A stretch of DNA of 41,826 bases, from assembly GCA_016841675.1 (NCBI GenBank), contig JAENYQ010000025.1, positions 1 through 41,826 on the forward strand. The letters run 5' to 3'. Origin of the DNA: Desulfotomaculum sp. GTDB taxonomy: Bacteria > Bacillota > Desulfotomaculia > Desulfotomaculales > Desulfallaceae. This document shows, piece by piece, positions 9,219 through 41,826 of the stretch. The notes below the pieces were generated by a model, which was not told where the DNA came from, made no database searches, and saw only the letters and a list, made by a program, of their open reading frames with translations. A program made the translations under genes and the position numbers. Numbering within the stretch: position 1 is the stretch's first letter; each line of letters opens with the position of its first letter.

Positions 9219-10457
9219 ATGAAAAAAATATTGTTTTTAGCTGGAGAATATCATCCATATCCATATGCTAATGGTGTATGTATTCAAAATGTAGTTAATG
9301 AATTAAAACATAAGAATTATGAAGTAGATGTAGTCTGTTTCAATACTACTAATAATAAAGAATTACATGTAGATAAATACAACAATTCAAAAATATACTA
9401 CGTAAACAATTTTGAAAATAATAAAGGGGTATTAAAAGATTTTAGACTACGTGTTAAAAATATATTACTGGCACCGTTGTATCCCGCAACTGATGTTAAA
9501 TTGATAAAAAAATACTATTGTGTGGTGAAAGAAGCGCTATGTACAAACAAATACGAAATGATAATTGCTGTTTATAATCCAATAGAAGCAGTAATAGCAG
9601 GTAAATTTGCTATTAGAAAAGTTCAAGGTTGTAAATATTGCTTATATATGTTTGACACATTAACTAACACAGGTCAGGCTACCGCACGTGGTCTTAAGAC
9701 TAATAAAGCAATTAAAATATATACGGATAACAGAAAACTATCTTGGGAACTTAAATTATTTGAATGTGCAGACTCGATTATATTAATGAATTCACATCGC
9801 CAGCATTATAAACAAAAGATGTATGATGAATTTCAAAGCAAAATAGTTTTTAGTGATTTACCATTGTTTGACCCTACGAATTTTTGTGCAGATTTTACTG
9901 AAAGTAACACCAAGATTAATATGGTATATTGCGGCGTCTTATCAAAAGAATATAGAAATCCTAGGTATTTATGTGAAGCAGTCATAAAATGCAAAGAATA
10001 TATATCCTGTTCATTGGACGTATATTGCAGAGGCAACTGTGGCCAAATGCTCGAACAGTATAGCGAGAGATCAAATAATGTAATTCGAAAACATGAATAT
10101 GTTGAATATGGTAAAATGAAAGATATCTTAAATAATTCCGATGTGTTAATAAGTATTGGGAATTATAACTCTAAAATGGTACCTTCAAAAATATTTGAGT
10201 ATATGTCAACTGGAAAAAAGATAATACATTTTATTCGAAGTAATAATGATTCTTGTCTTTCATATTTGTGTAAATATCCTGCAGCATTGATTATTAACGA
10301 GGATGTAACGCTAGAAGAAAATATCCAAAACATCTTAAAATTTTTAAATGAGCCATTAAATAAAAACGATATGATAGGCCTTAGAGATCTATTTAAGTTT
10401 AATATGCCTGGATACACAGCAAAAATTATTGATGATATATTGAATAATTCGTTATAG
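9219..10457 (+). CDS. Glycosyltransferase, GT4/GT-B-like
   Basis: A 412-residue protein starting KKILFLAGEYHPYPYANGVCIQ, the GT-B N-terminal pattern. The C-terminal half has MVYCGVLSKEYRNPRYL (new-domain strand), then DVLISIGNYNSKMVPSKIFEYMSTGKKIIHF, the nucleotide-sugar-binding region in which E of KIFEY is the conserved acidic residue. It starts 9 bases after the polymerase gene (GGTGG at 9211). Codon use is very AT-rich, like its downstream neighbours. Sugar unknown. Confidence 0.85.
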   Translation: MKKILFLAGEYHPYPYANGVCIQNVVNELKHKNYEVDVVCFNTTNNKELHVDKYNNSKIYYVNNFENNKGVLKDFRLRVKNILLAPLYPATDVKLIKKYYCVVKEALCTNKYEMIIAVYNPIEAVIAGKFAIRKVQGCKYCLYMFDTLTNTGQATARGLKTNKAIKIYTDNRKLSWELKLFECADSIILMNSHRQHYKQKMYDEFQSKIVFSDLPLFDPTNFCADFTESNTKINMVYCGVLSKEYRNPRYLCEAVIKCKEYISCSLDVYCRGNCGQMLEQYSERSNNVIRKHEYVEYGKMKDILNNSDVLISIGNYNSKMVPSKIFEYMSTGKKIIHFIRSNNDSCLSYLCKYPAALIINEDVTLEENIQNILKFLNEPLNKNDMIGLRDLFKFNMPGYTAKIIDDILNNSL

Positions 10458-23077: not shown

Positions 23078-23150
23078 TATGGTATGGTAGCGTGGGACCG
23101 CGGAATTAATCTACGATCCTATCGAAATAAGTATAATAAACGGATATAAT

Positions 23151-23319
23151 GACCCCATCTGGGATGATTTGGGAATCCTTTGGATTCCCAAATCATCCCA
23201 GATGGGGTCAGTCCCTCGCCAAGGCAATACGTTAACGCACTAAAGCGATATGGTTGTAAGAACCCCCTGCCGGTAAACCAGGCAGGGGGTTCTTCGTTGA
23301 CGTAAATATCATTATCGGA
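23151..23319 (+). repeat. Composite hairpin repeat, copy A
   Basis: Module 1 is a perfect 28-bp inverted repeat (23151-23178 and 23182-23209, loop TTT), the longest in the window. Module 2 runs from GTCCCTCGCC through CGTTAACGCACTAAAG, the CCCCCTGCC/GGCAGGGGG hairpin, TTGACGTAA and TTATCGG at about 23319. This copy is the reference for the others. Confidence 0.92.
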
Positions 23320-23474: not shown

Positions 23475-24356
23475 TTGGCTGAATATGATTTAATCTTAAA
23501 AGCTCTAGCCGGGCAGTACCCGGAACATTTTGTAACCGTAGTCAGGGGACCGGGGGCAGAAGTGGAAAAAATCGAGCGCCTGGAAAAAGAAGCGGTGGCC
23601 ACTCAGCGCACTTCAGATATTTTGCTGAAAGTCACCGAGAGCGGCTATGAATATATATTATTGATCGAAATACAAACCAGGCCCGACAAAGGGATGCCCT
23701 TAAGGCTACTCGAATACACGGCCATGCACCATAGAGCGCATAAAAAGCCGGTTTACCCGGTGCTAATAAACTTAACCGGCCAGGGTTACAGGGAAGAATG
23801 TTATACATATGAATGCCTGGACATAACTGTAATCGATTTTAACTACCGGCAGTTTAACTTAAGTGAAATGAACGGGCGCGAATTTCTACACGCAGCGCCG
23901 GTGGGGCTTTTGCCCCTGGTGCCGCTAATGCGGCATTCCGACTCTCCGCAAGAGGTGCTTGAGGCATGCTCCAGGCGGGTAGAAAAAGAAGTGTTATCTG
24001 AACAGGACAGGGCCAGTCTCTTTTTAGGCCTAGCCGTAATCAGCTCGCTTAAGCTGTCCAAAGAAATAATCCTAAAGGTAATCGAGGTGAGTAAAATGGA
24101 AAACTCTCCGTTGTTTGACCGTATTCGCGAGGAATGGGAAGATAGAGGTAAGGTCAAAGGCATAATTTTTGCCATTCTAAAAACCTTAGAAAAAAACACC
24201 GGCAAGAAACCAGATAAGTTTTTTGAATCAAGGTTGCGTGCTATTGATAATGAAGAGATAATTGAAAAGTTGTTTTATGTAGCAATCGAGGCAGACAGCT
24301 TAGAACATTTTACGGATGCCCTGGAAAAAGTAGAGCAAGAAAGGGCTGGTCGTTAA
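23475..24356 (+). CDS. Rpn/DUF4351-like PD-(D/E)XK nuclease-family protein
   Basis: Resembles the Rpn (recombination-promoting nuclease / putative transposase) and DUF4351 family. The restriction-nuclease fold core is visible: TSDIL (D48) and LIEIQTRP (E65, Q67), the D...ExQ variant usual for this family, then LEYTAMHH. A helical middle (155-205) and a C-terminal region DRGKVKGIIFAILKTLEKN with an Rpn-like tail follow. The start is TTG with GGAG at 23460. It is bracketed by repeat copies A and B. Members are thought to be DNA nucleases that promote recombination; activity here is inferred. Confidence 0.75.
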   Translation: MAEYDLILKALAGQYPEHFVTVVRGPGAEVEKIERLEKEAVATQRTSDILLKVTESGYEYILLIEIQTRPDKGMPLRLLEYTAMHHRAHKKPVYPVLINLTGQGYREECYTYECLDITVIDFNYRQFNLSEMNGREFLHAAPVGLLPLVPLMRHSDSPQEVLEACSRRVEKEVLSEQDRASLFLGLAVISSLKLSKEIILKVIEVSKMENSPLFDRIREEWEDRGKVKGIIFAILKTLEKNTGKKPDKFFESRLRAIDNEEIIEKLFYVAIEADSLEHFTDALEKVEQERAGR

Positions 24357-24492: not shown

Positions 24493-24496
24493 AATG

Positions 24497-24655
24497 CTCG
24501 GGTAGTTGTTGGACCTGGCTTGCGCCATTCCCAACAACTACCAAAAGGGGCCTGTCCCTCGCTAAGGTGATGCGTTAACACACTAAAGTATTGCGGGTGT
24601 TAGAATCCCCTGCCGGTGTACTGGGCAGGGGATTTGACGTAACATTTATTATCGG
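24497..24655 (+). repeat. Composite hairpin repeat, copy B
   Basis: The palindrome has a different arm (GGTAGTTGTTGG with CCAACAACTACC) and a TGGCTTGCGCCA top, then AAAAGGGGCCTGTCCCTCGC and a full module 2 with a CCCCTGCC/GGCAGGGG hairpin, ending TTATCGG at about 24655. Confidence 0.9.
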
Positions 24656-27204: not shown

Positions 27205-27345
27205 GTGATCGGGATGTATTGGGAGTCCTCCAAATTCCCAATACATCCCCAAAAAGGGTCAGTCCCTCGCCAGGCAATACGTTAACGCACTAAAGCGATA
27301 TGGTTGTAAAAATCCCCTGCCGGTAAACCAGGCAGGGGGTTCTTC
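27205..27345 (+). repeat. Composite hairpin repeat, copy C
   Basis: Starts TGATCGGGATGTATTGGGAG; the arm differs from copy A at two central positions, both compensated on the other side (CCCAATACATCCC). Module 2 continues to the GGCAGGGGG hairpin and then breaks at about 27345, without the usual TTGACGTAA end. Confidence 0.88.
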
Positions 27346-27645: not shown

Positions 27646-27901
27646 ATCACTTCTCATAGTTGAAATATTATACCATATCCTGTAATTTGGGATAATGACA
27701 ACAATGCATGGTCAGTTCCCCTTACACGCCGGGGGTTATTGTTTAGTTACAGGTTTATCATTACCTCTCCGCGATTACCCGCTCGAACATCGATACCAAT
27801 GCAGGCAAAGATTCACGCGCTGTCATCCAGACGATCTTAAGATACTAAAATATGTATATATAAAAAATATCATTTACACGTGTGATTGTCAATTAAAAAA
27901 T
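27646..27901. other. Intergenic stretch without recognisable gene
   Basis: A short open frame on the plus strand (27695-27985) runs into repeat copy D and has no family resemblance. TATAAT-like words and an AT-rich tract (about 27845-27900) are the only features. Confidence 0.4.
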
Positions 27902-28074
27902 GCCCGGATAAACTGGCGACCTGACGGTCTTCCGGATTCTCCTAGAAGGAGTGATCCAAAAGATGTCAGTCCCTCGCTTAGGTAATGCGTTAACGTACTA
28001 AAGCAACGATGGTGTTAGAATCCCCTGCCGGTGAACCAGGCAGGGGATTTGACGCAACGCTCATTATCGGCAGG
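27902..28074 (+). repeat. Composite hairpin repeat, copy D
   Basis: The palindrome is of the CCTGACGGTCTTCC type, with a damaged left arm and an AAGGAGTGATCCAAAAGAT interruption in the tail. Module 2 is complete (TGCGTTAACGTACTAAAG, CCCCTGCC/GGCAGGGG, TTGACGCAAC, TTATCGG). Confidence 0.85.
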
Positions 28075-28283: not shown

Positions 28284-28577
28284 ATTCTAACTGTTGAATG
28301 GGTTCTTAGTCAACATGCCAGAATTAGAGCTGGACAGCGTTGTGTTAAAGATTTCGAAATGGTTATTGCAATTGCAAATGGAGAGATTTTAGAGAATTAT
28401 CCGGAAGATCAAAGGGGCCATAGTTGCCTGGTGCTTGGTTATACCAGAGATGGAAAGGCCTTGCACGCAGTATGTGGTTATGACCCATCCGGTACTTTGG
28501 TAATAATTACTGTTTATTTTCCAGAACCGCCTAAATGGAAAGATCCTAAAACGCGGGGGGAAGGATGTATGAAATGA
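28284..28577 (+). CDS. DUF4258 toxin-like protein (MqsR-like partner of YgiT), unusual start
   Basis: The protein contains LSQHARIRAGQRC, VIAIANGEILENYPEDQRGH, SCLVLGYTRDGKALHAVCG and LVIITVYFPEPPKW, the full DUF4258 pattern; these RelE-like proteins pair with YgiT-type zinc-finger antitoxins. The first ATG in frame (28359) would remove the conserved H-A-R-x-R segment. The frame is open from 28272, so an ATT (28284) or ATA start is possible. Alternatively a TTG at 28257 is the true start and the TAG at 28269 is a nonsense mutation. The same sequence is present in the 150-bp duplicate. Overlaps the antitoxin by ATGA. Confidence 0.7.
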   Translation: MLTVEWVLSQHARIRAGQRCVKDFEMVIAIANGEILENYPEDQRGHSCLVLGYTRDGKALHAVCGYDPSGTLVIITVYFPEPPKWKDPKTRGEGCMK

Positions 28578-28822
28578 TTAATAAATGTTTAATATGCGGC
28601 GGAAAAACGGTTAAAAAAATAGTAACCACGGAAAACTGGTGGGGCGAAAAATTAACGCTGGTTGAGAATGTTCCGGCTTGGGTATGCGATACGTGTGGAG
28701 AACAATTCTTTGAACCAGAGGTGTGCGAAGAATTGGATCGTTTACGAGACACTCCGCCGGTTGCAAAAAGAACTATACAAGTGCCTGTTTACAATTTCCC
28801 TAAAAATATTTACTCAAGATAA
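28574..28822 (+). CDS. YgiT-type zinc-finger antitoxin
   Basis: Two CxxC pairs (CLICGG at the start and CDTCGEQFFEPE in the middle) bind one zinc, followed by EVCEELDRLRDTPPVAKRT and a C-terminal VPVYNF tail, as in the MqsA N-terminal/YgiT family. The ATG at 28574 has GGGGGGAAGG 10 bases upstream and overlaps the toxin stop; the earlier ATG at 28565 lies on that ribosome binding site. Likely neutralises the DUF4258 protein and represses the operon. No C-terminal helix-turn-helix is present, unlike MqsA. Confidence 0.82.
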   Translation: MINKCLICGGKTVKKIVTTENWWGEKLTLVENVPAWVCDTCGEQFFEPEVCEELDRLRDTPPVAKRTIQVPVYNFPKNIYSR

Positions 28823-28940
28823 TTCTCCTAGATGGGGCTGTCCCTCGTCAAGGTGATGCGTTAACACACTAAAGCATTGCGGGCGTTAGAATCCGCTGCT
28901 GGTGTACAGGGCAGGGGATTTGACGTAACGCTTATTATTG
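28822..28940 (+). repeat. Composite hairpin repeat, copy E (left arm lost)
   Basis: Only the right part of the palindrome remains (ATTCTCCTAGATGGGG, the same type as copies D and G); module 2 follows to TTATTATTG. It touches the stop codon of the YgiT gene. Confidence 0.82.
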
Positions 28941-29021
28941 TAATCAAGCAATGTATATTTTGTGAATTCCACTTATCTAAATATTACTGTTTAAAAATTG
29001 CCGGCTTATTTTTCAAATAAC

Positions 29022-29171
29022 GATATAATAAAATAAAAGTGCTGAGGTTTTGGGAGCATTGGGTATAAAATAGATACGGAATAAAATTCTAACTGTTGAA
29101 TGGGTTCTTAGTCAACATGCCAGAATTAGAGCTGGACAGCGTTGTGTTAAAGATTTCGAAATGGTTATTGC
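29022..29171 (+). repeat. Perfect 150-bp duplicate of the DUF4258 leader and 5' end
   Basis: Identical, base for base as read, to 28220-28369: second TATAAT, leader and the first 34 or so in-frame codons of the DUF4258 gene. It is cut off exactly where repeat copy F begins (ATTGC then TCGAGG). Confidence 0.93.
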
Positions 29172-29342
29172 TCGAGGAAATTTCGAAAGGCCTATTCGGC
29201 CTTCCAAAATTTCCTAAAAGGGGTCAGTCCCCCGCCAGGGTAATATATTAACGTACTAAAGTGATTGCGGGTATAAAAAAACCCTGCCGGTGCTAACCAG
29301 GCAGGGAATTATTTGTCCACGTAACTCTCACTATCGGAAGTA
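29172..29342 (+). repeat. Composite hairpin repeat, copy F
   Basis: Has the most divergent palindrome (GAGGAAATTT...AAATTTCC with an AAGGCC/GGCCTT top). The scaffold tail AAAAGGGGTCAGTCCC is unchanged. In module 2 the inner hairpin is ACCCTGCC/GGCAGGG and the outer strands TATTAACG/CCACGTAA. Just past its end lies TTCGCCTAGCGGA plus T8 (29356-29380), a possible small terminator. Confidence 0.88.
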
Positions 29343-29423: not shown

Positions 29424-29457
29424 ACCATAAAGAGAAATAAACTTACGGGGGGAAGTG

Positions 29458-30351
29458 ATGCCATTGCCACACAAGCAGTGGCACCCATTATTTGTAACAT
29501 CATTAAAAGAAGCGCTATCAGACGCCTTGCCGGGCCAAGTGGAAATAATACCCGAACTAGCCCTATCCTCAAAGCCACTGGATATAGATGTGCTGGTAGT
29601 GAAAAAAAGTCAGATGGCCCAACTACGCCATCCCATGACCGGCATATTTAAAACATACAACCTTTTTGAATTTAAAAGCCCTGACGATAATCTAGATTTA
29701 AATGATTATGACAAAGGCATAGCCATAGCTAGATTATATAAAGTAATTAAACACCCCAAAATGCACACATTAAATGACATAACACTAACCTTTGTTAGCA
29801 GAAAACATCCTGCTTCTATGCTGGAACTGCTCAAAACAAGAGAATTAGCTGTTCATAAAGGTAATCCGGCACCTGGCATTTACCGGGTGTTAGGGGAATC
29901 AATACCGGTTCAAATAATGGTGCTAAAAGAGCTACAAGATCCGGAAACAGCCTATATGTTTGCGGTCTTTTTAACTGGTAGAGAAAAAATAAGACTTGAC
30001 GCTACGATGACATTAATAAAAAAGCACCTGGCAGACCCGACCAGTCCCTATCGGCGCGATCTTTTGGAATTTAAAATAAAAAACCAGCTGATCTCCACTG
30101 AAGAAATGGAGGTGTTGTTAAAAATGCTAAATCAGGCAAACGAACAAGAAAAGGTAAAAATAAAGGAATTGTTGCAAAGTCACCCTTTTAGCCAGGAGGT
30201 TAAAAAAGAAGGCAAATTAGAAGAAAAAAGGAAAATTGCAATAAAATTGCTACATCTTAAAATGGATGTTGATACTATTGCCAAAGTAACTGGCTTAACG
30301 CAAACCCAGATTGAGGAATTGAAAAAGCAAATGCTTGATGGGAAGCCGTAA
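29458..30351 (+). CDS. Rpn-like PD-(D/E)XK nuclease-family protein
   Basis: Second, distantly related nuclease-like gene of the array. The core reads PLDIDVLVV (D42/D44) and YNLFEFKSPDD (E71, K73), the classic D...ExK signature, preceded by the helix HPLFVTSLKEALSD. The C-terminal 40 residues (KIAIKLLHLKMDVDTIAKVTGLT and QIEELKKQ) are the tail typical of Rpn/DUF4351 proteins. GGGGGG at 29447-29452 supports ATG 29458; the GTG at 29455 is also possible. Unlike the gene at 23475 it keeps the canonical Lys. Confidence 0.75.
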   Translation: MPLPHKQWHPLFVTSLKEALSDALPGQVEIIPELALSSKPLDIDVLVVKKSQMAQLRHPMTGIFKTYNLFEFKSPDDNLDLNDYDKGIAIARLYKVIKHPKMHTLNDITLTFVSRKHPASMLELLKTRELAVHKGNPAPGIYRVLGESIPVQIMVLKELQDPETAYMFAVFLTGREKIRLDATMTLIKKHLADPTSPYRRDLLEFKIKNQLISTEEMEVLLKMLNQANEQEKVKIKELLQSHPFSQEVKKEGKLEEKRKIAIKLLHLKMDVDTIAKVTGLTQTQIEELKKQMLDGKP

Positions 30352-30360
30352 GTGCTCAGG

Positions 30361-30562
30361 TGAGGATTAGTCCCCCGCTACGTTAAAGACTTAACGAGCT
30401 AATGCCCGGAGAATCTGAAAGACCTGACGGTCTTCCAGATTCTCCTAGATGGGGCCTGTCCCTCACTAAGGTGATGCGTTAACGCACTAAAGTATTACGG
30501 GTGTTAGAATCCCCTGCCGGTGTATCGGGCAGGGGATTTGACGTAAATCTCATTATCGGAAA
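30361..30562 (+). repeat. Composite hairpin repeat, copy G, preceded by a module 2 scrap
   Basis: 30361-30402 holds a scrap (GTCCCCCGCTACGTTAAAGAC with GAGCTAATG). Copy G proper follows: GGAGAATCTGAAAGACC and GGTCTTCCAGATTCTCC around CTGAC, with one mismatch (A opposite C), then GATGGGGCCTGTCCC and a complete module 2 ending TTATCGG at about 30559. Confidence 0.88.
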
Positions 30563-30829: not shown

Positions 30830-31444
30830 ATGGAGTTTGGCGGCCCCTCTCCCTATGCTCTTAAGATGGACTTGAAGTCCCACTACAAGATGAGAATAGC
30901 AATTCCTTGGTCAAATGTCCAGAGCTATATTAAAAATCCTAAAAATTTTCTTCCTGACAGGCCTGTTTGTCTTAATGATCCAACCCACCGACCGTACTGG
31001 AATGCAAGTTGGGACCGTGAATTATGCTTAGACCATGTTAACGCAACTGAAATCACCCTCTTTAACGCTTATTGCAAAAAATGCCACGAGACAATCAGTT
31101 ATTGGCCAGAATTTGTGCTGGCATATCAGAGAGAGCCACTGGAGACTCATGAACAGGTATTAATTGAGCGTCTACAAGGAATTAGCCTTAGAGAGAGTGC
31201 CGCTAAGATTGGTTACGATCCACGCACTTTGTCCCGTTGGCTAAAGCTTATCTTGGCCCAAGCGTTGATACTCATTAACGCTGCCATTCGGCGCATTCTC
31301 AATGTTCTTGCTCAAGAGATATTGCCCTTGGCCGCAACAGTGGCCAAGGAAGCCACCAGGCTTCTCCTTGCCTGGCTACAAAACTATGCCGAGTGGGTAA
31401 GCTTTCCTCGTCCCAACCGGTTGATGAACGGTATGTATTGGTAA
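30830..31444 (+). CDS. DUF6431-like protein with zinc-ribbon and helix-turn-helix, 3' end inside a repeat
   Basis: A 204-codon frame. The N-terminal half has several Cys/His residues (RPVCLNDPTHRPYW, ELCLDHV, YCKKCHETISYWPEF) resembling a zinc ribbon, then GISLRESAAKIGYDPRTLSRWLK, a helix-turn-helix, then a hydrophobic helical part. This resembles the DUF6431 family, often found near mobile DNA; I am not certain. The last codons (NGMYW) are encoded by the left arm of repeat copy H, so the original C-terminus was probably replaced by the repeat. Start at ATG 30830 (AGGGAG upstream) or ATG 30866. Confidence 0.6.
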   Translation: MEFGGPSPYALKMDLKSHYKMRIAIPWSNVQSYIKNPKNFLPDRPVCLNDPTHRPYWNASWDRELCLDHVNATEITLFNAYCKKCHETISYWPEFVLAYQREPLETHEQVLIERLQGISLRESAAKIGYDPRTLSRWLKLILAQALILINAAIRRILNVLAQEILPLAATVAKEATRLLLAWLQNYAEWVSFPRPNRLMNGMYW

Positions 31445-31588
31445 TCCTTCGGATTCCCAATACATACCAAAAGGGGTCAGTCCCTCGCCAAGGGAATACG
31501 TTAACGCACTAAAGTATTGCGGGTGTTAGAATACCCTGCCGGATCAAACCGGGCAGGGGGTTTTTTGAAACTCCCCTGGTCACCGATA
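31425..31588 (+). repeat. Composite hairpin repeat, copy H
   Basis: Arms GGTATGTATTGGTAATCC and GGATTCCCAATACATACC, one mismatch. Module 2 has a CCCTGCCGG/CCGGGCAGG hairpin followed by TTTTTT, terminator-like, and an altered end (GGTCACCGATA). It matches copy P at 163 of 164 positions. Confidence 0.92.
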
Positions 31589-31722: not shown

Positions 31723-32640
31723 TTATTTATTTGCCCATTCATTCTTGGTTGGATCCCAGTAAAGGAAGAATTCTTCCTCGTTAAAAAATGACTCAAGTAT
31801 TGGTTGCAGAAAAACCTTTATTTGTAGCATTACATCACTAAAAGTTTCTGGATTCTCAGCCCGGATCCGTTTTTTGAAATTGTCCCATTCTCGTTGTTTT
31901 TCTGAGCTATTGATAAATAAGTCTTGAAAGATTAGTGGATTCTTCTCGAATTTGGTTCTTCTTCTTTCAAATGTTTGTATTATTGCTTCCTGGAGGATTC
32001 TTCCTTCAAAGGTCTTTCTATTTGATAGGATATAAATGTCATAAAAATCCTTCATTCTGCTGTTAAGAAAAGATAACTTAATCATTGCCTCAAATTTTTC
32101 AGCTATGGAGGATTCAAGGGTGTATGCTTGAACAAGGGGTATTTCATTTGTCTCCAACAGGACGGGGAACTCAATTTCAGCAGGCTTAGGTATAACAACA
32201 TCACCAAAACCGATATCTATTTGCAAACGATTCCTAACTTTTCCGAGATTACAGGTGATTCCTGCCCTTATACCTCTATATAAACCATGTTCCATGATAG
32301 TCTCAACGGTTATATCAGTTACCCGAAAAATTATTCCATCATCACATTGGACCCGGGCTACTTTTGAAAGGATGTTCATCAAATTTTCGCGCTTATTTTG
32401 GATTTTATAAGCCAGGAAGTCTATGTCTATCGTTGGTCGGGTGTTAAATTTGTCGATACAGAATAGCAATAACCCACCCTTTAACAGAAAGTTGTTTGCG
32501 TAGGGCGAAACTGATAACCGGTAAAGAAATCTTTCCTGCATGTATAGAATCAATATTGAGTTATAATCAATGCCGTTTTCTTTGGCAATGTTTTTTAATC
32601 TGGCTATTATTGAAGCTGGTTTGTTCTTTACGTTATTCAT
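31723..32640 (-). CDS. abiEii: AbiEii/AbiGii-family nucleotidyltransferase toxin
   Basis: Toxin of a type IV-like AbiE abortive-infection system. The nucleotidyltransferase core is FLLKGGLLLFCIDKF (G55, G56) and PTIDIDFLAY (D72 and D74, metal-binding). Further motifs are AEKFEAMIKLSFLNSRMKDFYDIYIL, the usual ExK...RxKDFYD block of this family, near 190-215. Length 305 is normal. It overlaps the stop of abiEi by ATGA, so the two are translated together. Such enzymes modify tRNA or block growth on phage infection; the target here is not known. Confidence 0.93.
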   Translation of the reverse strand: MNNVKNKPASIIARLKNIAKENGIDYNSILILYMQERFLYRLSVSPYANNFLLKGGLLLFCIDKFNTRPTIDIDFLAYKIQNKRENLMNILSKVARVQCDDGIIFRVTDITVETIMEHGLYRGIRAGITCNLGKVRNRLQIDIGFGDVVIPKPAEIEFPVLLETNEIPLVQAYTLESSIAEKFEAMIKLSFLNSRMKDFYDIYILSNRKTFEGRILQEAIIQTFERRRTKFEKNPLIFQDLFINSSEKQREWDNFKKRIRAENPETFSDVMLQIKVFLQPILESFFNEEEFFLYWDPTKNEWANK

Positions 32641-33242
32641 AATAGAACCTCAATATATATCTCAATCTGCTTGGTTACCCCGCAAATATCAGCATACTTC
32701 ATTAGAAGCTCCAGGTTGCGGTTATGGTTTTTTGTGTAACTAAGCATCATTTCCTTAACAATGTCCTTGCCAATTTGATCGCGGTATCTAATGCAATCAC
32801 ATATTGTTTTCTCTTTGCAATAAATTTTTACTTCGTGTTTGCCAAGTTTTATTATTTCGATACCAGTATTAAAAATTTTAGGTGTAAAGTAATATATTTT
32901 AACTGGTGGGTAATCTGGCGCCTTTACCTTAGATTTCCTGTCAATGGCGACAGATATCTCCCACGGTTGATAAGTAGTAAGGTTGTGGTAGGCTAGGGCT
33001 GATTGCAGGCATATTACACAATTTGGCATAGCCATTGCGACATCGGGTAGGGTAGAGTCCGGGGAGTTTTCCATGTCAGCCCAACGGTATAGTCCTCTTT
33101 TTATGCGCTCAATTTCACCATTTTCAAGAAGCTTATTAAGGTATATATTATGAATGCCAACTTGAATAATTTCCCGTGTATGTGCATACCCATTATTTTT
33201 TTTAAAGATGTTACGTATTTTCTTATGAATTTCATTTTTCAT
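32637..33242 (-). CDS. abiEi: AbiEi-family antitoxin
   Basis: An N-terminal winged helix (KIRNIFKKNNGYAHTREIIQ, LNKLLENGEIERIKRGLYRW) and the C-terminal AbiEi domain (CLQSALAYHNLTTYQPWEIS, YYFTPKIFNTGIEII, KTICDCIRYRDQIG). It binds its own operator in known systems and counteracts AbiEii without direct contact. The frame is open to a GTG at 33275, but ATG 33242 fits the family start and has AGGATG upstream. Confidence 0.92.
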   Translation of the reverse strand: MKNEIHKKIRNIFKKNNGYAHTREIIQVGIHNIYLNKLLENGEIERIKRGLYRWADMENSPDSTLPDVAMAMPNCVICLQSALAYHNLTTYQPWEISVAIDRKSKVKAPDYPPVKIYYFTPKIFNTGIEIIKLGKHEVKIYCKEKTICDCIRYRDQIGKDIVKEMMLSYTKNHNRNLELLMKYADICGVTKQIEIYIEVLL

Positions 33243-33281
33243 GGATTCAACACATCCTGATAAAGTAATCGGCACTCGGCT

Positions 33282-33471: not shown

Positions 33472-33615
33472 ACCCTTTTGGGATGTTTTGGGAATCCTTT
33501 CGGATTCCCAAAACATCCCAAAAGGGGTCTGGCCCCCGCTTGGGTGATACGTTAACGCACTAAAGCGACGATGGTTTAGGAATCCCCTGCCGGTGAACCA
33601 GGCAGGGGACTTAGT
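33472..33615 (+). repeat. Composite hairpin repeat, copy I
   Basis: A perfect 25-bp inverted repeat (33473-33497 and 33502-33526). The tail is GGGGTCTGGCCCCCGC instead of GGGGTCAGTCCCTCGC. Module 2 ends after the GGCAGGGG hairpin. It is identical over about 88 bp to copy K. Confidence 0.9.
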
Positions 33616-33640
33616 TTATAAAACCAGTTAATTAGTGTAA

Positions 33641-33970
33641 CTATACTTGTGATAAAATAAACTTTATATAAGCTGTTTGAATCTCATTAAGGTCATCTGA
33701 ATGTAGAAAACCTAATTTGTAAATAAACTGAGATTTATCTATCATAATGGTTTTTGAAACCCGAGCTGTTGATGGAAAATTTAGGCCAGCGTATACCCAT
33801 TTAACAATTGGTACATCATTATTATCTCTTGGTGCATGTTTTGTTACTTTTACTGATAGAACATCTAAAGATTCAATTGCTAAAACAATTACCGGCCTTG
33901 GAAGGAAGGTTGAAGGATCTTCTTCAAGAGGGAATTTACACATCCATACATCGCCTAATGAGATATTCAC
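33641..33970 (-). CDS. PemK/MazF-like toxin
   Basis: A 109-residue protein with NISLGDVWMCKFPLEEDPST and LPRPVIVLAI, the PemK/MazF N-terminal barrel pattern (GDVW and the RPVIVL strand), then SVKVTKH and a C-terminal helix. Family members are mRNA endoribonucleases. It is shorter and more divergent than classical MazF. The upstream 76-codon gene ends 13 bases before it and is the likely antitoxin. Confidence 0.75.
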   Translation of the reverse strand: MNISLGDVWMCKFPLEEDPSTFLPRPVIVLAIESLDVLSVKVTKHAPRDNNDVPIVKWVYAGLNFPSTARVSKTIMIDKSQFIYKLGFLHSDDLNEIQTAYIKFILSQV

Positions 33971-33983
33971 AGAATTTATCTAT

Positions 33984-34214
33984 TTACTCCTTATTTGCTT
34001 TATCCCATTCATGCTCTTCTCTCCAAGGGTCATTCTTTGATATAATCGTCTTTCCATCCTGATTTCTTTTAGTGTTAGCTTCGGCTAAATGGCGAATTAG
34101 TAACTTATTTCTTGTGAGGAAGTCTGCAAAAGTATCAGCCTGAACGCTATTGGCTGTTACTGGCATGTCTTTCCCCTCCCTCTGCTTTTTGGTATCCTTT
34201 TTTTCTTTGTCCAT
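33984..34214 (-). CDS. Putative antitoxin of the MazF-like toxin
   Basis: A charged protein (76 residues from ATG 34214: MDKEKKDTKKQREG, then FADFLTRNKLLIRHLAEANT and a Glu/Asp/Lys-rich tail). GGAAGGTGG lies 6-7 bases upstream of this ATG, whereas the longer frame from 34259 lacks one. It has no recognisable DNA-binding fold. Its role is inferred from gene order and size; I do not know the family. Confidence 0.6.
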   Translation of the reverse strand: MDKEKKDTKKQREGKDMPVTANSVQADTFADFLTRNKLLIRHLAEANTKRNQDGKTIISKNDPWREEHEWDKANKE

Positions 34215-34274
34215 ATCATACCACCTTCCAATAGCTTGTTCAATAAGTATTATGCCCATTTTGCCAGTTTATGT

Positions 34275-34330
34275 CCGGGGAATCTGGAAGACCTGACGTT
34301 CTTCCAGATTCCCCTAGATGGGGTCAGTCC
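34275..34330 (+). repeat. Composite hairpin repeat, copy J (module 1 only)
   Basis: 15-bp perfect arms GGGGAATCTGGAAGA (34277-34291) and its complement (34300-34314), loop CCTGACGT, then CTAGATGGGGTCAGTCC. Module 2 is absent; the group II intron fragment begins at this point. Confidence 0.85.
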
Positions 34331-34687
34331 GAAAGCGCCGGGATAAACCGGCATAGAGTAGGGGATGAAAGAGCCCCACGTGAAAGGAATAGCTGCACCA
34401 TCACGACCCCGAGTCATGCGCGGGTAGCCGCGAGGCCGCACGTGAAGCGTTGATAGGGGAAAACGCAGGCCAGCCATTGAGCTCCGAAATCACCCATCTG
34501 GGGTGCCGACCTTGTGGTCAGATAGGGAAGGCAACACGATATGACGGCGACAAACGCAGCGAGCCGCATATCGACCCCGCGGAGTCGAAGAACCTGAGCA
34601 TGCGTGGACACTTTATGTTCGAGAACCGGGAGATCTCAGCGGTACCCACTGGCCAGTATGCTGGCGGGTCGGTTAGGGAAGGCCTGT
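34331..34687 (+). mobile_element. Group II intron 5' fragment (ribozyme part)
   Basis: The stretch contains ATGAAAGAGCCCCACGTGAA, CATGCGCGGGTAGCCGCGAG, GTGAAGCGTTGATAGGGGAA, GAGCTCCGAAATCACCCATC, ATCGACCCCGCGGAGTCGAA and GGTACCCACTGGCCAGTATG, which I recognise as the conserved ribozyme segment upstream of the reverse-transcriptase gene in bacterial group II introns. No protein-coding part is left. It begins directly after palindrome J and ends directly before palindrome K. Short frames across it are not genes. Confidence 0.62.
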
Positions 34688-34844
34688 GATCGGATGTTTT
34701 GGGAATCCTTTCGGATTCCCAAAACATCCCAAAAGGGGTCTGGCCCCCGCTTGGGTGATACGTTAACGCACTAAAGCGACACGGTTGTTAAAACCCCCGC
34801 CGGTGAACCAGGTAGGGGGTTTGACATAAGTATTGTTATCGGAA
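34688..34844 (+). repeat. Composite hairpin repeat, copy K
   Basis: Starts TGATCGGATGTTTTGGGAAT. Shares palindrome and tail with copy I, but its inner hairpin is CCCCCGCC/GGTAGGGGG and it keeps the full end (TTGACATAAGT, TTATCGG). Confidence 0.9.
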
Positions 34845-35757: not shown

Positions 35758-36213
35758 TTATATGTCTTTAAGTAAGCTAACATAACTTTTTTTACCTCTT
35801 AAAGAATTAACCAATCGTTCGTCTGCTGTCCAGAATTCACAGTTTTCCCCAGTTTTTTCTCTAATCTCTTCTGCCACTGCTAAAAAGGTGGCATCATATA
35901 ACGTTGGTAAGTCAAAATAGCAACTAATTTTCCATGCCCTATCCATAATGCTGTATTCTTCCATAATATATTTAATACCTTTGAACTCCTTAAAACTAGC
36001 CCACATTTCCTCGGCATCCGGTAAAGTTAGCTGCTTGATCCTAATCTTTTTTCTAAAAATGCTCCCTATCTCAGCCCATGCAAAGGAGGGCAAGACAATT
36101 ATTTGATTATCTTCAATTATTTTTTGCATTAAAACTTTAGCTTTAAAACTATCTTCTTCCTCAAAAAACAACTTTAGAAATACGGAGGTATCCAAACAAA
36201 TATATCTACTCAT
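35758..36213 (-). CDS. VapC-like PIN-domain toxin
   Basis: A 151-residue PIN protein: ICLDTSVFLKLFFEEE (first Asp), LPSFAWAEIGSIF (Glu), LPTLYDATFLAVAEE (Asp) and FWTADERLVNSL (Asp), the four-acid RNase site of VapC. It overlaps the upstream antitoxin by eight bases, a standard VapBC arrangement. Not close in sequence to the PIN protein at 34.9 kb, so a separate acquisition. Confidence 0.88.
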   Translation of the reverse strand: MSRYICLDTSVFLKLFFEEEDSFKAKVLMQKIIEDNQIIVLPSFAWAEIGSIFRKKIRIKQLTLPDAEEMWASFKEFKGIKYIMEEYSIMDRAWKISCYFDLPTLYDATFLAVAEEIREKTGENCEFWTADERLVNSLRGKKSYVSLLKDI

Positions 36214-36505
36214 AACGATTAGTACCTTCTCGTAAGTTTTGAACTAGCTTGACAGAATCCTCATGTAAGCCAGTCTTTCGGGTAACTTTTTCTTTCAAGC
36301 TTAGTATTTTTTCTAAACTCTTTTTACGACTTTCCACTAATTCATTCTCATTATTCAAATGCATTTTATTGAAACTTTCGGCATCAATTATATATGCTAC
36401 CGGCTTTGATCTTTGTAAAATAGCAATAGGCTTTTTTGTTTTGGTTAAATCTGCCAACACGCTTTTGGTGTTTCTTCTTATTTCGGTTATGCTAACCATC
36501 CGCAT
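36206..36505 (-). CDS. Phd/YefM-like antitoxin
   Basis: The frame extends to 36538, but AGGAG sets the start at ATG 36505. MVSITEIRRNTKSVLADLTK and KKPIAILQRSKPVAYIIDAE are the Phd/YefM DNA-binding N-terminal domain; the Lys/Glu-rich C-terminal half would wrap the VapC-like toxin. It should autoregulate the operon. Confidence 0.85.
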   Translation of the reverse strand: MRMVSITEIRRNTKSVLADLTKTKKPIAILQRSKPVAYIIDAESFNKMHLNNENELVESRKKSLEKILSLKEKVTRKTGLHEDSVKLVQNLREGTNRYE

Positions 36506-36586
36506 TATTATCACTCCTAAAAGCATCCTTAAAAGCATTATAGCATATTGTTTCTACTTTGGCCAAAGGGAGCCTGTCCTTTAGAT

Positions 36587-36735
36587 GATCGGGATGATTT
36601 GGGAATCTTTTCGGATTCCCAAATCATCCCAAAAGGGGACTGACCCTCACCGCGTTAATAAGCTAAAGTATTTTTTAAATTTAATAAAAATAAAACCACC
36701 GCAAACACGGAGGTTTTTTCTTCTCTGACGTAATA
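36587..36735 (+). repeat. Composite hairpin repeat, copy L (divergent module 2)
   Basis: The palindrome is of the copy A type with one mismatch (GGGAATC/GATTCCC around TTTTCG). Module 2 is strongly altered (GCGTTAATAAGCTAAAG, then an AACCACCG/CGGAGGTT hairpin plus T6), but the order of parts and the final TGACGTAAT are kept. The preceding GGGAGCCTGTCC (about 36569) is a further scrap. Confidence 0.8.
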
Positions 36736-37631: not shown

Positions 37632-37747
37632 ATGCCCCATCTAGGAGAATCTGGAAGACCGTCAGGTGTTTATGGTTATCCGATAGAGTCAGCAGTGATC
37701 GGGATGATTTGGGAATCCTTCGGATTCCCAAATCATCCCACGATGGG
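37632..37747. repeat. Composite hairpin repeat, copy N, with an inverted half-copy
   Basis: 37634-37666 is a half-palindrome of the copy D/G type in inverted orientation (complement CCTGACGGTCTTCCAGATTC and onward), the only reversed piece in the window. 37697-37747 is a module 1 palindrome of the copy A type starting TGATCGGGATGATTTGGG. No module 2 follows. Confidence 0.82.
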
Positions 37748-37751
37748 GTAA

Positions 37752-38316: not shown

Positions 38317-38904
38317 ATGCCACGCAAAAAACGGGTTTGGTATCCCGGAGCTGTTTATCACATCATGTGCCGGGGGAATCACCGTCAGGAAATCTATAGA
38401 GATGAAGAAGACAGGCTGTTTTTCCTGACCACTTTAAGGGAAGTTAAAGAAAATTTGCCATATATACTGCACAGTTATTGCCTGATGACCAACCATTTCC
38501 ACTTGCAGGTTGAAACCGGCGATATCAATATTAGCCAGGTGATGAAAAGAATCAACATGCTGTACGCTATATATTTCAACCATAAATACAATTTTGTCGG
38601 CCATTTGTTTCAGGACCGCTATCGTGCCGAATTGATTGAGACAACGCCCTACCATTTGGAAATAAGCAGATACATTCATTTAAACCCGGTTCGAGCCAGT
38701 ATTGTTGAGCGTCCTAATTTGTACCAGTGGAGTAGTTATAGAGTATATACGGGTGAGCAGCAGGATCAGCTTACCACCACTGCCAAAATATTGGGCTGTT
38801 TTGCACCCCCCAGCGTTCAGCATTACCGGAACTTTGTGGAGGAAGCATTGAAATATATTAAAGTTAAGCCTAAAGGGGATGAAGCAGATGGCAATAGTAA
38901 TTAA
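38317..38904 (+). CDS. REP-associated tyrosine transposase (RAYT, Y1/HUH family)
   Basis: An IS200/IS605-like single-strand transposase. It has RVWYPGAVYHIMCRGNHRQE at the N-terminus, the HUH pair in LMTNHFHLQVE (H60, H62), and SRYIHLNPVRAS with the likely catalytic Tyr119. GGTGG upstream supports the ATG. RAYTs are single-copy domesticated transposases that recognise palindromic REP sequences; the palindromes packed around this gene are the obvious candidates. It overlaps the start of comM by 17 bases. Confidence 0.93.
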   Translation: MPRKKRVWYPGAVYHIMCRGNHRQEIYRDEEDRLFFLTTLREVKENLPYILHSYCLMTNHFHLQVETGDINISQVMKRINMLYAIYFNHKYNFVGHLFQDRYRAELIETTPYHLEISRYIHLNPVRASIVERPNLYQWSSYRVYTGEQQDQLTTTAKILGCFAPPSVQHYRNFVEEALKYIKVKPKGDEADGNSN

Positions 38905-40443: not shown

Positions 40444-40596
40444 ATGGACCTATTCTGGATTTGGCTGAGTACGGTTAAGGGTATCGGTCCGGTAACGCAA
40501 AAAAAACTGCTGGCAATTTTGTTCCGGTAATCAGCGGTATGGCCAGGGGTATTGACGGGTATGCCCATACCGCATGTCTCAGAGCAGGTGGCTATA
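40444..40596 (+). pseudogene. dprA: dprA remnant
   Basis: MDLFWIWLSTVKGIGPVTQK, KLLAILFR is the DprA N-terminus; after a large internal deletion and frame change, ISGMARGIDGYAHTACLRAG matches the DprA Rossmann core (SGMARGID). The rest is replaced by repeat copy O. It follows comM directly, as in many Firmicutes. DprA loads RecA on transforming DNA, so this pathway is disabled here unless another copy exists. Confidence 0.85.
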
Positions 40597-40765
40597 GACG
40601 GAAGTTTTGGGAACTCCTTCGGATTCCCAAAACATCCCAAAAGGGGCCTGTCCCTCGCCAAGGCAATATGCTAACGCGTTAAAGTATTGAGGTGTATGAA
40701 TTCCTTGCCTTTGCAAACCAGCCCAGGGGTTTTGGGTTACGTAAATTTGATTATCGGAAATACCA
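40597..40765 (+). repeat. Composite hairpin repeat, copy O
   Basis: The left arm lacks a few bases compared with the right (GGAAGTTTTGGGAACTCC against GGATTCCCAAAACATCCC). Module 2 is complete but diverged (TATGCTAACGCGTTAAAG, CCTTGCC hairpin, GGTTACGTAAAT, TTATCGG). Confidence 0.85.
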
Positions 40766-41662: not shown

Positions 41663-41826
41663 TGAACGGTATGTATTGGTAATCCTTCGGATTCCCAATA
41701 CATACCAAAAGGGGTCAGTCCCTCGCCAAGGGAATACGTTAACGCACTAAAGTATTGCGGGTGTTAGAATACCCTGCCGGATCAAACCGGGCAGGGGGTT
41801 TTTTGAAACTCCCTTGGTCACCGATA
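41663..41826 (+). repeat. Composite hairpin repeat, copy P (runs to window end)
   Basis: Matches copy H (31425-31588) at 163 of 164 positions; the single difference is CCCCTGG against CCCTTGG near the end. About 10 kb separates the two, pointing to recent copying or gene conversion. Confidence 0.93.

Follow-up and report, generated by a model that had tools for sequence, protein, structure and literature searches.

The window analyzed here, i.e., the 41826 nt that make up an entire contig in the 3.84-Mb draft genome of Desulfotomaculum sp., contains an array of bipartite, two-hairpin elements. We tentatively regard them as DNA-level structured ends which are recognized by a comM-linked RAYT (REP-associated tyrosine transposase) and used to build cassette arrays, with a probability of about 0.45. 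The anatomy of the elements, the covariation of their hairpin 1, the sharp left end, the same-direction arrays, the position 3′ of genes and the adjacency to RAYT genes were observed. We infer that the RAYT is the mover of the elements and TG its target, and likewise the cassette-building step and the chemistry of the right end.

The earlier note had described the region 23203–23319 (module 2) as a conserved structured element, possibly RNA, with a constant order of motifs. The sequence is as described, and the same order was seen in 13 copies on the + strand. Module 2, however, is no standalone unit; this region is the right half of element A, module 1 lying immediately to its left, and the whole bipartite element spans ~165–190 nt. 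It reads TG▼[C/A]TCGG (▼ marks the left boundary), hairpin 1, GGGGNCWGTCCC, a conserved core of ~45 nt ending in ...TTAACnnACTAAAG, hairpin 2 and ...TTATCGG. Hairpin 1 has a stem of at least 12 bp and a loop that is often TTCG-like or GGCTTGCGCC, the hairpin foot being TCGG; on its 3′ side come AAAGGGGNCWGTCCCYC and the core, then ~20 variable nt between TTAACnnACTAAAG and hairpin 2, and the right end reads ...ACGTAA...CATTATCGGA. The left boundary is sharp because the information jumps from background (at most 0.29 bits/base) to 1.68 bits at TG, as calculated for 62 copies from several genomes.

Several copies depart from this plan. In copies A (23150–23210) and I (33473–33526), hairpin 1 is lengthened to perfect inverted repeats of 29 and 25 bp. 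These take the place of the usual TGATCGG left end, which looks as though one arm had served as the template for the other. In two elements of genome G013 (L097 6100–6150; L098 ~16000), a small additional insertion that contains a TTATCAAGTTATTTGATAA palindrome lies between the core and hairpin 2. A further G013 element (L099 ~14000) adjoins an apparent 5S rRNA 3′ end, where hairpin 2 of the element possibly also serves as the terminator of rrn, read on the opposite strand.

In a repeat search, the element recurred roughly every 1 kb on the + strand, and the full bipartite element could be aligned in 13 window copies between 23150 and the contig end at 41826 (Table 1). With the covariance model R1, 13 copies of the window were recovered, each on the + strand, together with some 10 on other contigs of the genome. 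The copies outside the window include those on contigs C36, C59, C142 and C151, with a single orientation per contig.

Table 1. Elements, intron and neighboring genes in the window (coordinates in nt of the window).
Feature	Coordinates	Strand	Remarks
Element A	23150–23319	+	29-bp perfect inverted repeat (module 1) at 23150–23210
Element A, parts	core 23203–23245; hairpin 2 23258–23294; right end TTATCGG ~23313–23319	+	
Rpn (Transposase_31) cassette gene	23475–24356	+	DNA 87% identical in another genus
Element B	24495–24655	+	Complete (TGCTCGG ... TTATCGG); top model score
Element C	27206–27345	+	Without right end (replaced after GGGGGTTCTTCGT)
Element D	27901–28071	+	Complete; degraded hairpin 1
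Element E	28811–28941	+	Truncated module 1
Element F	29169–29338	+	Left boundary within a gene remnant
Element remnant	30353–30404	+	Directly 5′ of element G; 2 nt past the stop codon of 29455–30351
Element G	30403–30559	+	Complete
Element H	31425–31560	+	Without right end; left end cuts the 3′ end of gene 30830–31444
AbiEii/AbiEi toxin-antitoxin pair	31723–33275	-	Between elements H and I
Element I	33473–33620	+	Hairpin 1 a 25-bp perfect inverted repeat; without right end
PemK/MazF-like toxin and small upstream gene	33641–34259	-	Between element I and the intron
Lone module 1	34271–34330	+	5′ part of a group II intron directly after
3′-truncated group II intron	34331–34683	+	Rfam RF02005 at 34368–34594; after GGGGTCAGTCC, cut at the start of element J
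Element J	34684–34842	+	Complete
PIN toxin/Phd-YefM antitoxin pair	35758–36538	-	Between elements J and L
Element L	36586–36730	+	Variant core (GCGTTAATAAGCTAAAG); unrelated hairpin 2
Module 1 remnant	37696–37750	+	5′ of the RAYT gene
RAYT (Y1, HUH tyrosine transposase)	38317–38904	+	PF01797; HFH and Y motifs present
comM copy, second in the genome	38879–40438	+	Overlaps the RAYT gene; one in-frame TAG
Element M	40595–40757	+	Complete
Element N	41663–41817	+	Without right end; close to the contig end

The conserved structured element is real and goes far beyond a chance repeat, but its best evidence comes from module 1, to the left of the part noted earlier. Across 24 elements from several genera, 88% of the cells of hairpin 1 were paired and 9 of the 12 pairs showed double changes, the pairs being counted over related sequences. 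The covariation score of 0.498 compared with 0.161 after shuffling (reached in 0 of 500 shuffles) and the 54 double-change cells with 16.6, a shuffle comparison rather than a formal R-scape test, and the signal was lost when the arms were slid. Hairpin 2 (18 elements) was paired in 84% of the cells; its double-change cells numbered 6 vs. 3.2 in shuffles (32/500). The paired changes reported for this inner stem are real in the window (ACCCCC/GGGGGT in A; TCCCC/GGGGA in B, D and G), and so is the wholly different stem of copy L (36586–36730), AACCaCCG/CGGaGGTT. As covariation they are weak in the wider set, in which the module-2 stem scored barely above the shuffles (0.184 vs. 0.173, 114/500). 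The proposed outer pairing of TACGTTAAC with GTTGACGTA is not conserved, being complete only in close copies such as A and B and broken in F, J, M, the c142 copy and every aligned relative. An alternative pairing from RNAalifold, GTGTTAG/GACGTAA, was not adopted because several copies break four of its pairs involving the right-end arm.

We agree with the earlier note that the element matches no known RNA family. At the Rfam gathering score, only RF02005 (group II intron) matched in the window; permissive thresholds applied to a 200-nt stretch gave sub-threshold matches only to generic long hairpins, and a literature search with the GGGACAGTCCC motif returned unrelated papers only. A trans-acting non-coding RNA or a riboswitch formed by module 2 alone would fit the conserved core and stem and the lack of a known family. 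This reading appears very improbable, since module 2 belongs to a bipartite element, its outer helix is not conserved, unrelated stems replace hairpin 2 in some genomes (including G013) and in copy L, and the copies are found mostly 3′ of genes and not in leaders.

The elements show a strand bias relative to genes. They lie 3′ of codirectional genes (46:9 in tandem contexts); a codirectional stop preceded the left end by at most 60 nt in 29 cases vs. 17.4 ± 3.6 at random, as compared with 2 cases before opposite genes, and neighboring elements at most 6 kb apart were on the same strand in 65 of 66 pairs (12 genomes; median spacing 1153 nt), counts whose significance is overstated as arrays are non-independent samples. 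In two species, an orthologous element has been kept 4 nt past the same gene. This strand bias leaves room for a 3′-UTR or terminator role, and an RNA role for the element is possible. Transcribed downstream of toxin-antitoxin and other genes, hairpins 1 and 2 might terminate or insulate the mRNA or affect its stability, and might have spread through duplication and horizontal transfer, being useful there. Besides the placement 3′ of codirectional genes and the orthologous pair, this would agree with a G013 hairpin 2 with a long T tract, resembling an intrinsic terminator by eye. We nevertheless consider a 3′-end RNA rather unlikely: window hairpin 2 does not combine a GC stem with an immediate T run on the + strand and is not among the + strand terminator-like matches, it covaries weakly, and a terminator needs neither the ~45-nt core nor the end motifs (TGCTCGG, TTATCGG). 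The hairpins can also act as folded DNA single strands, and the mobile arrays, the RAYT gene and the use of the elements as group II intron targets point to DNA.

Genome-wide counts rest on model searches. The covariance model R2 (module 1 and core) placed the element in 17 of 41 relatives and in 27 of the 113 genomes of the class. Two more genomes outside the class were added among 299 phylum genomes searched, one of which, G196, has a dense element array. With a degenerate pattern of the core, matches were obtained in three named records (Desulfoscipio geothermicus, a Desulfotomaculaceae MAG and Sporotomaculum syntrophicum) and in none of the viral contigs searched.

The genes between the elements of the window encode an Rpn nuclease, a retropepsin-like protein, AbiEi/AbiEii, PemK/MazF, PIN with Phd, a GNAT protein and a YgiT antitoxin. 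The cargo of G196 comprises PemK, HEPN/MNT, ParE, DUF4160 and Rpn, and that of G077 HEPN/MNT and Fic. In G032, the same retropepsin pair as in the window recurs, along with an Rpn-type gene and a nucleotidyltransferase. Toxin-antitoxin, Rpn, HEPN/MNT and retropepsin-like cargo recurs in several families. Three cassettes are common to the window genome and G013 (Rpn 87%, X 88% and Y 87% identical), with different neighbors in the two. Arrays adjoin polysaccharide/capsule-type gene clusters in the window genome and in G077, and in G009 and G039 they are near UDP-glucose dehydrogenase-like genes (window 1–22800; L195 1218–4019; L168 8242–9618).

Comparison of filled and uninterrupted sites supports the left end. 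Element F begins at GGTTATTGC▼TCGAGG, whereas the uninterrupted GGTTATTGC▼AATTGC is present at 28369 and in contig C36. Three other comparisons gave ACAAARTTGC▼TCGGG vs. ▼ACGTAG, AAAAAATG▼CCCGG vs. ▼GTTAG and GACCTTGTG▼CTCGG vs. ▼GTCAGA; in the fifth (L035), AACGCA▼TGCCCGG vs. AACGCA▼GGCC, TG is not common to both. The shared sequence includes TG in four of the five comparisons, which suggests TG as the insertion target. No empty site was found for the right end, the uninterrupted sequence being restored at the right flank in none of the five left-end pairs; therefore, the right side is either imprecise or removed by later deletions. A single precise crossover on both sides of a cassette was not supported, as duplicated stretches inside the genome show mixed breakpoints, both inside genes and at elements.

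The same breakpoints, together with the many truncated window copies and the coincidence of the clusters with decayed genes, the second comM and IS-like genes, would be expected of passive interspersed repeats, i.e., an old, immobile MITE-like family residing in low-constraint islands, whose arrays were enlarged by homologous recombination and segmental duplication. We hold this to be unlikely. The perfect or near-perfect arms of hairpin 1, of differing sequence, imply a recent structural constraint, and drift alone predicts neither the sharp left end of the 62 copies nor the shared cassettes in differing surroundings or the like cargo across families.

The best NCBIfam match of the window RAYT was NF047646 (REP-associated tyrosine transposase) with 69 bits, below the cut-off of 80. 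The comM copy linked to it is probably decayed, and an intact comM is found elsewhere in the genome (G000 C47:18769–20253). The RAYT–comM pair was also present in the arrays of G013, G077 (partial) and G196, the last having two copies of RAYT, of which one is accompanied by comM and part of dprA; in G039, the RAYT lies beside comM–dprA. In the RAYT–comM copies of G013, G077 and G196, comM is incomplete too.

Among the 17 element-bearing genomes, five of six RAYTs of at least 60% identity were located within 3 kb of an element, as compared with two of 46 more distant RAYTs. When the later-found genomes were included, nine of 12 RAYTs of at least 60% identity, often with comM behind them, lay within 2 kb, all nine directly downstream and on the strand of the element. 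The exceptions were G027 (about 5 kb from an element), G110 (element on another contig) and G056, whose close RAYT had no element within the 14 kb read. G025 has elements and no RAYT at E 1e-10, and G009, G010, G011, G014 and G032 have elements with distant RAYTs only. It is possible that common hotspots of mobile genes co-locate RAYTs and elements without a functional link.

Six 5′ pieces of group II introns (one in the window at 34331, two in L097 and one each in L035, L102 and L195) sit just 3′ of hairpin 1, directly after GGGGNCAGTCC of a module 1. Each piece whose 3′ side was read stops exactly at the left end of another element, as expected if insertion had occurred again and again at the left end of an element already in place. 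The short pieces are 34331–34683 in the window, L035 5797–5935, L097 5209–5399 and L195 ~10220–10310. Judging from the context, the introns probably belong to class IIC. Group IIC introns target terminators and attC sites (PMC7923331) with a stem-loop upstream of IBS1, and in the elements hairpin 1 and CAGTCC likewise lie directly 5′ of the introns. Unlike such targets, most elements are intron-free, and of the introns read just a 5′ fragment is left, the next element having cut them.

REP/REPIN–RAYT ‘REPtrons’ (PMC6006769, PMC3116915) share with this system the many-copy intergenic structured repeats and the Y1/HUH tyrosine transposase gene beside them, here in several genomes; some RAYT subclasses adjoin atypical structures without GT[AG]G (PMC6006769). 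The elements differ from REPtrons in being ~170 nt long and bipartite, with two different hairpins and conserved core and end motifs, in forming same-strand arrays with gene cassettes, and in the link of the RAYT with comM. Instead of the single 21–65 nt hairpin of a REP, or two inverted ones, they have two unrelated hairpins and a core within ~165–190 nt, and the GT[AG]G foot is not conserved, occurring in five of 24 elements and then overlapping the stem. The ends of IS200/IS605-type transposons and derived (PATE-like) MITEs are similar in having subterminal hairpins at both ends without terminal inverted repeats and, as we propose for the elements, insertion 3′ of a short target. In contrast to them, no IS200-class TnpA is tied to the elements and the hairpin sequences vary freely; of the two ends, the left is backed by four of five empty/filled pairs and the right by none.

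Integron arrays and CALINs with attC sites (PMC7923331) likewise consist of same-direction small genes rich in toxin-antitoxin pairs, and the elements too border same-direction small-gene cassettes as structured sites. Like attC, they lie at gene 3′ ends, keep their structure despite sequence drift and harbor group II introns; unlike attC, they have a fixed boundary at the 5′ (left) end and a different anatomy, and their introns lie on the element's own strand. Site-specific recombination of attC-like sites by a tyrosine recombinase, i.e., a divergent integron, would account for the arrays, the cargo, the structured 3′ sites and the introns at them, and tyrosine recombinase genes or fragments do occur in or near the arrays of G032, G013 and G011. 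We find this quite improbable: the genes read in the array of the window include no tyrosine recombinase, and no single recombinase family recurs across arrays, unlike RAYT. Membership in integron attC sites proper was rejected, since the R'' (RYYYAAC) and R' (GTTRRRY) boxes flanking a stem were found in 0 of 13 elements on both strands. IntI (TIGR02249) exceeded the cut-off in none of 15 genomes, but neither did it in any control genome, and an integrase could therefore have been missed. On C145, a 15.6-kb contig of G000, about seven tyrosine recombinase genes stand in a row, with matches below the integron cut-off.

With the RAYT-based reading, the comM-linked RAYT would be the HUH endonuclease that recognizes both hairpins as folded DNA single strands, and copies would be inserted 3′ of TG, starting at TG▼[C/A]TCGG. 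New element-plus-gene units would tend to land directly 5′ of a resident element because each carries TG at its own left end. After repeated rounds, elements would flank every small gene (mostly toxin-antitoxin) of a same-direction array, comparable to the cassettes of integrons. That this amounts to an integron-like cassette-array system in Bacillota, run by an HUH single-strand transposase (the comM-linked RAYT) without an integron integrase, is a more doubtful proposition.

Integrons are the textbook route by which bacteria stockpile small genes. If the proposed system is true, units with structured left ends would join the left ends of resident elements and in this way gather toxin-antitoxin and other small genes. 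Such a second and unrelated, RAYT-based route would give a concrete role to widespread, poorly understood transposases, explain the large toxin-antitoxin islands of sulfate-reducing Bacillota and provide a structured site used by group II introns, in parallel to attC. Should the elements prove to be no more than 3′-end RNA structures, they would still constitute a recurrent, covarying family that is not in Rfam. Direct tests are practical, since two closed genomes carry dense copies.
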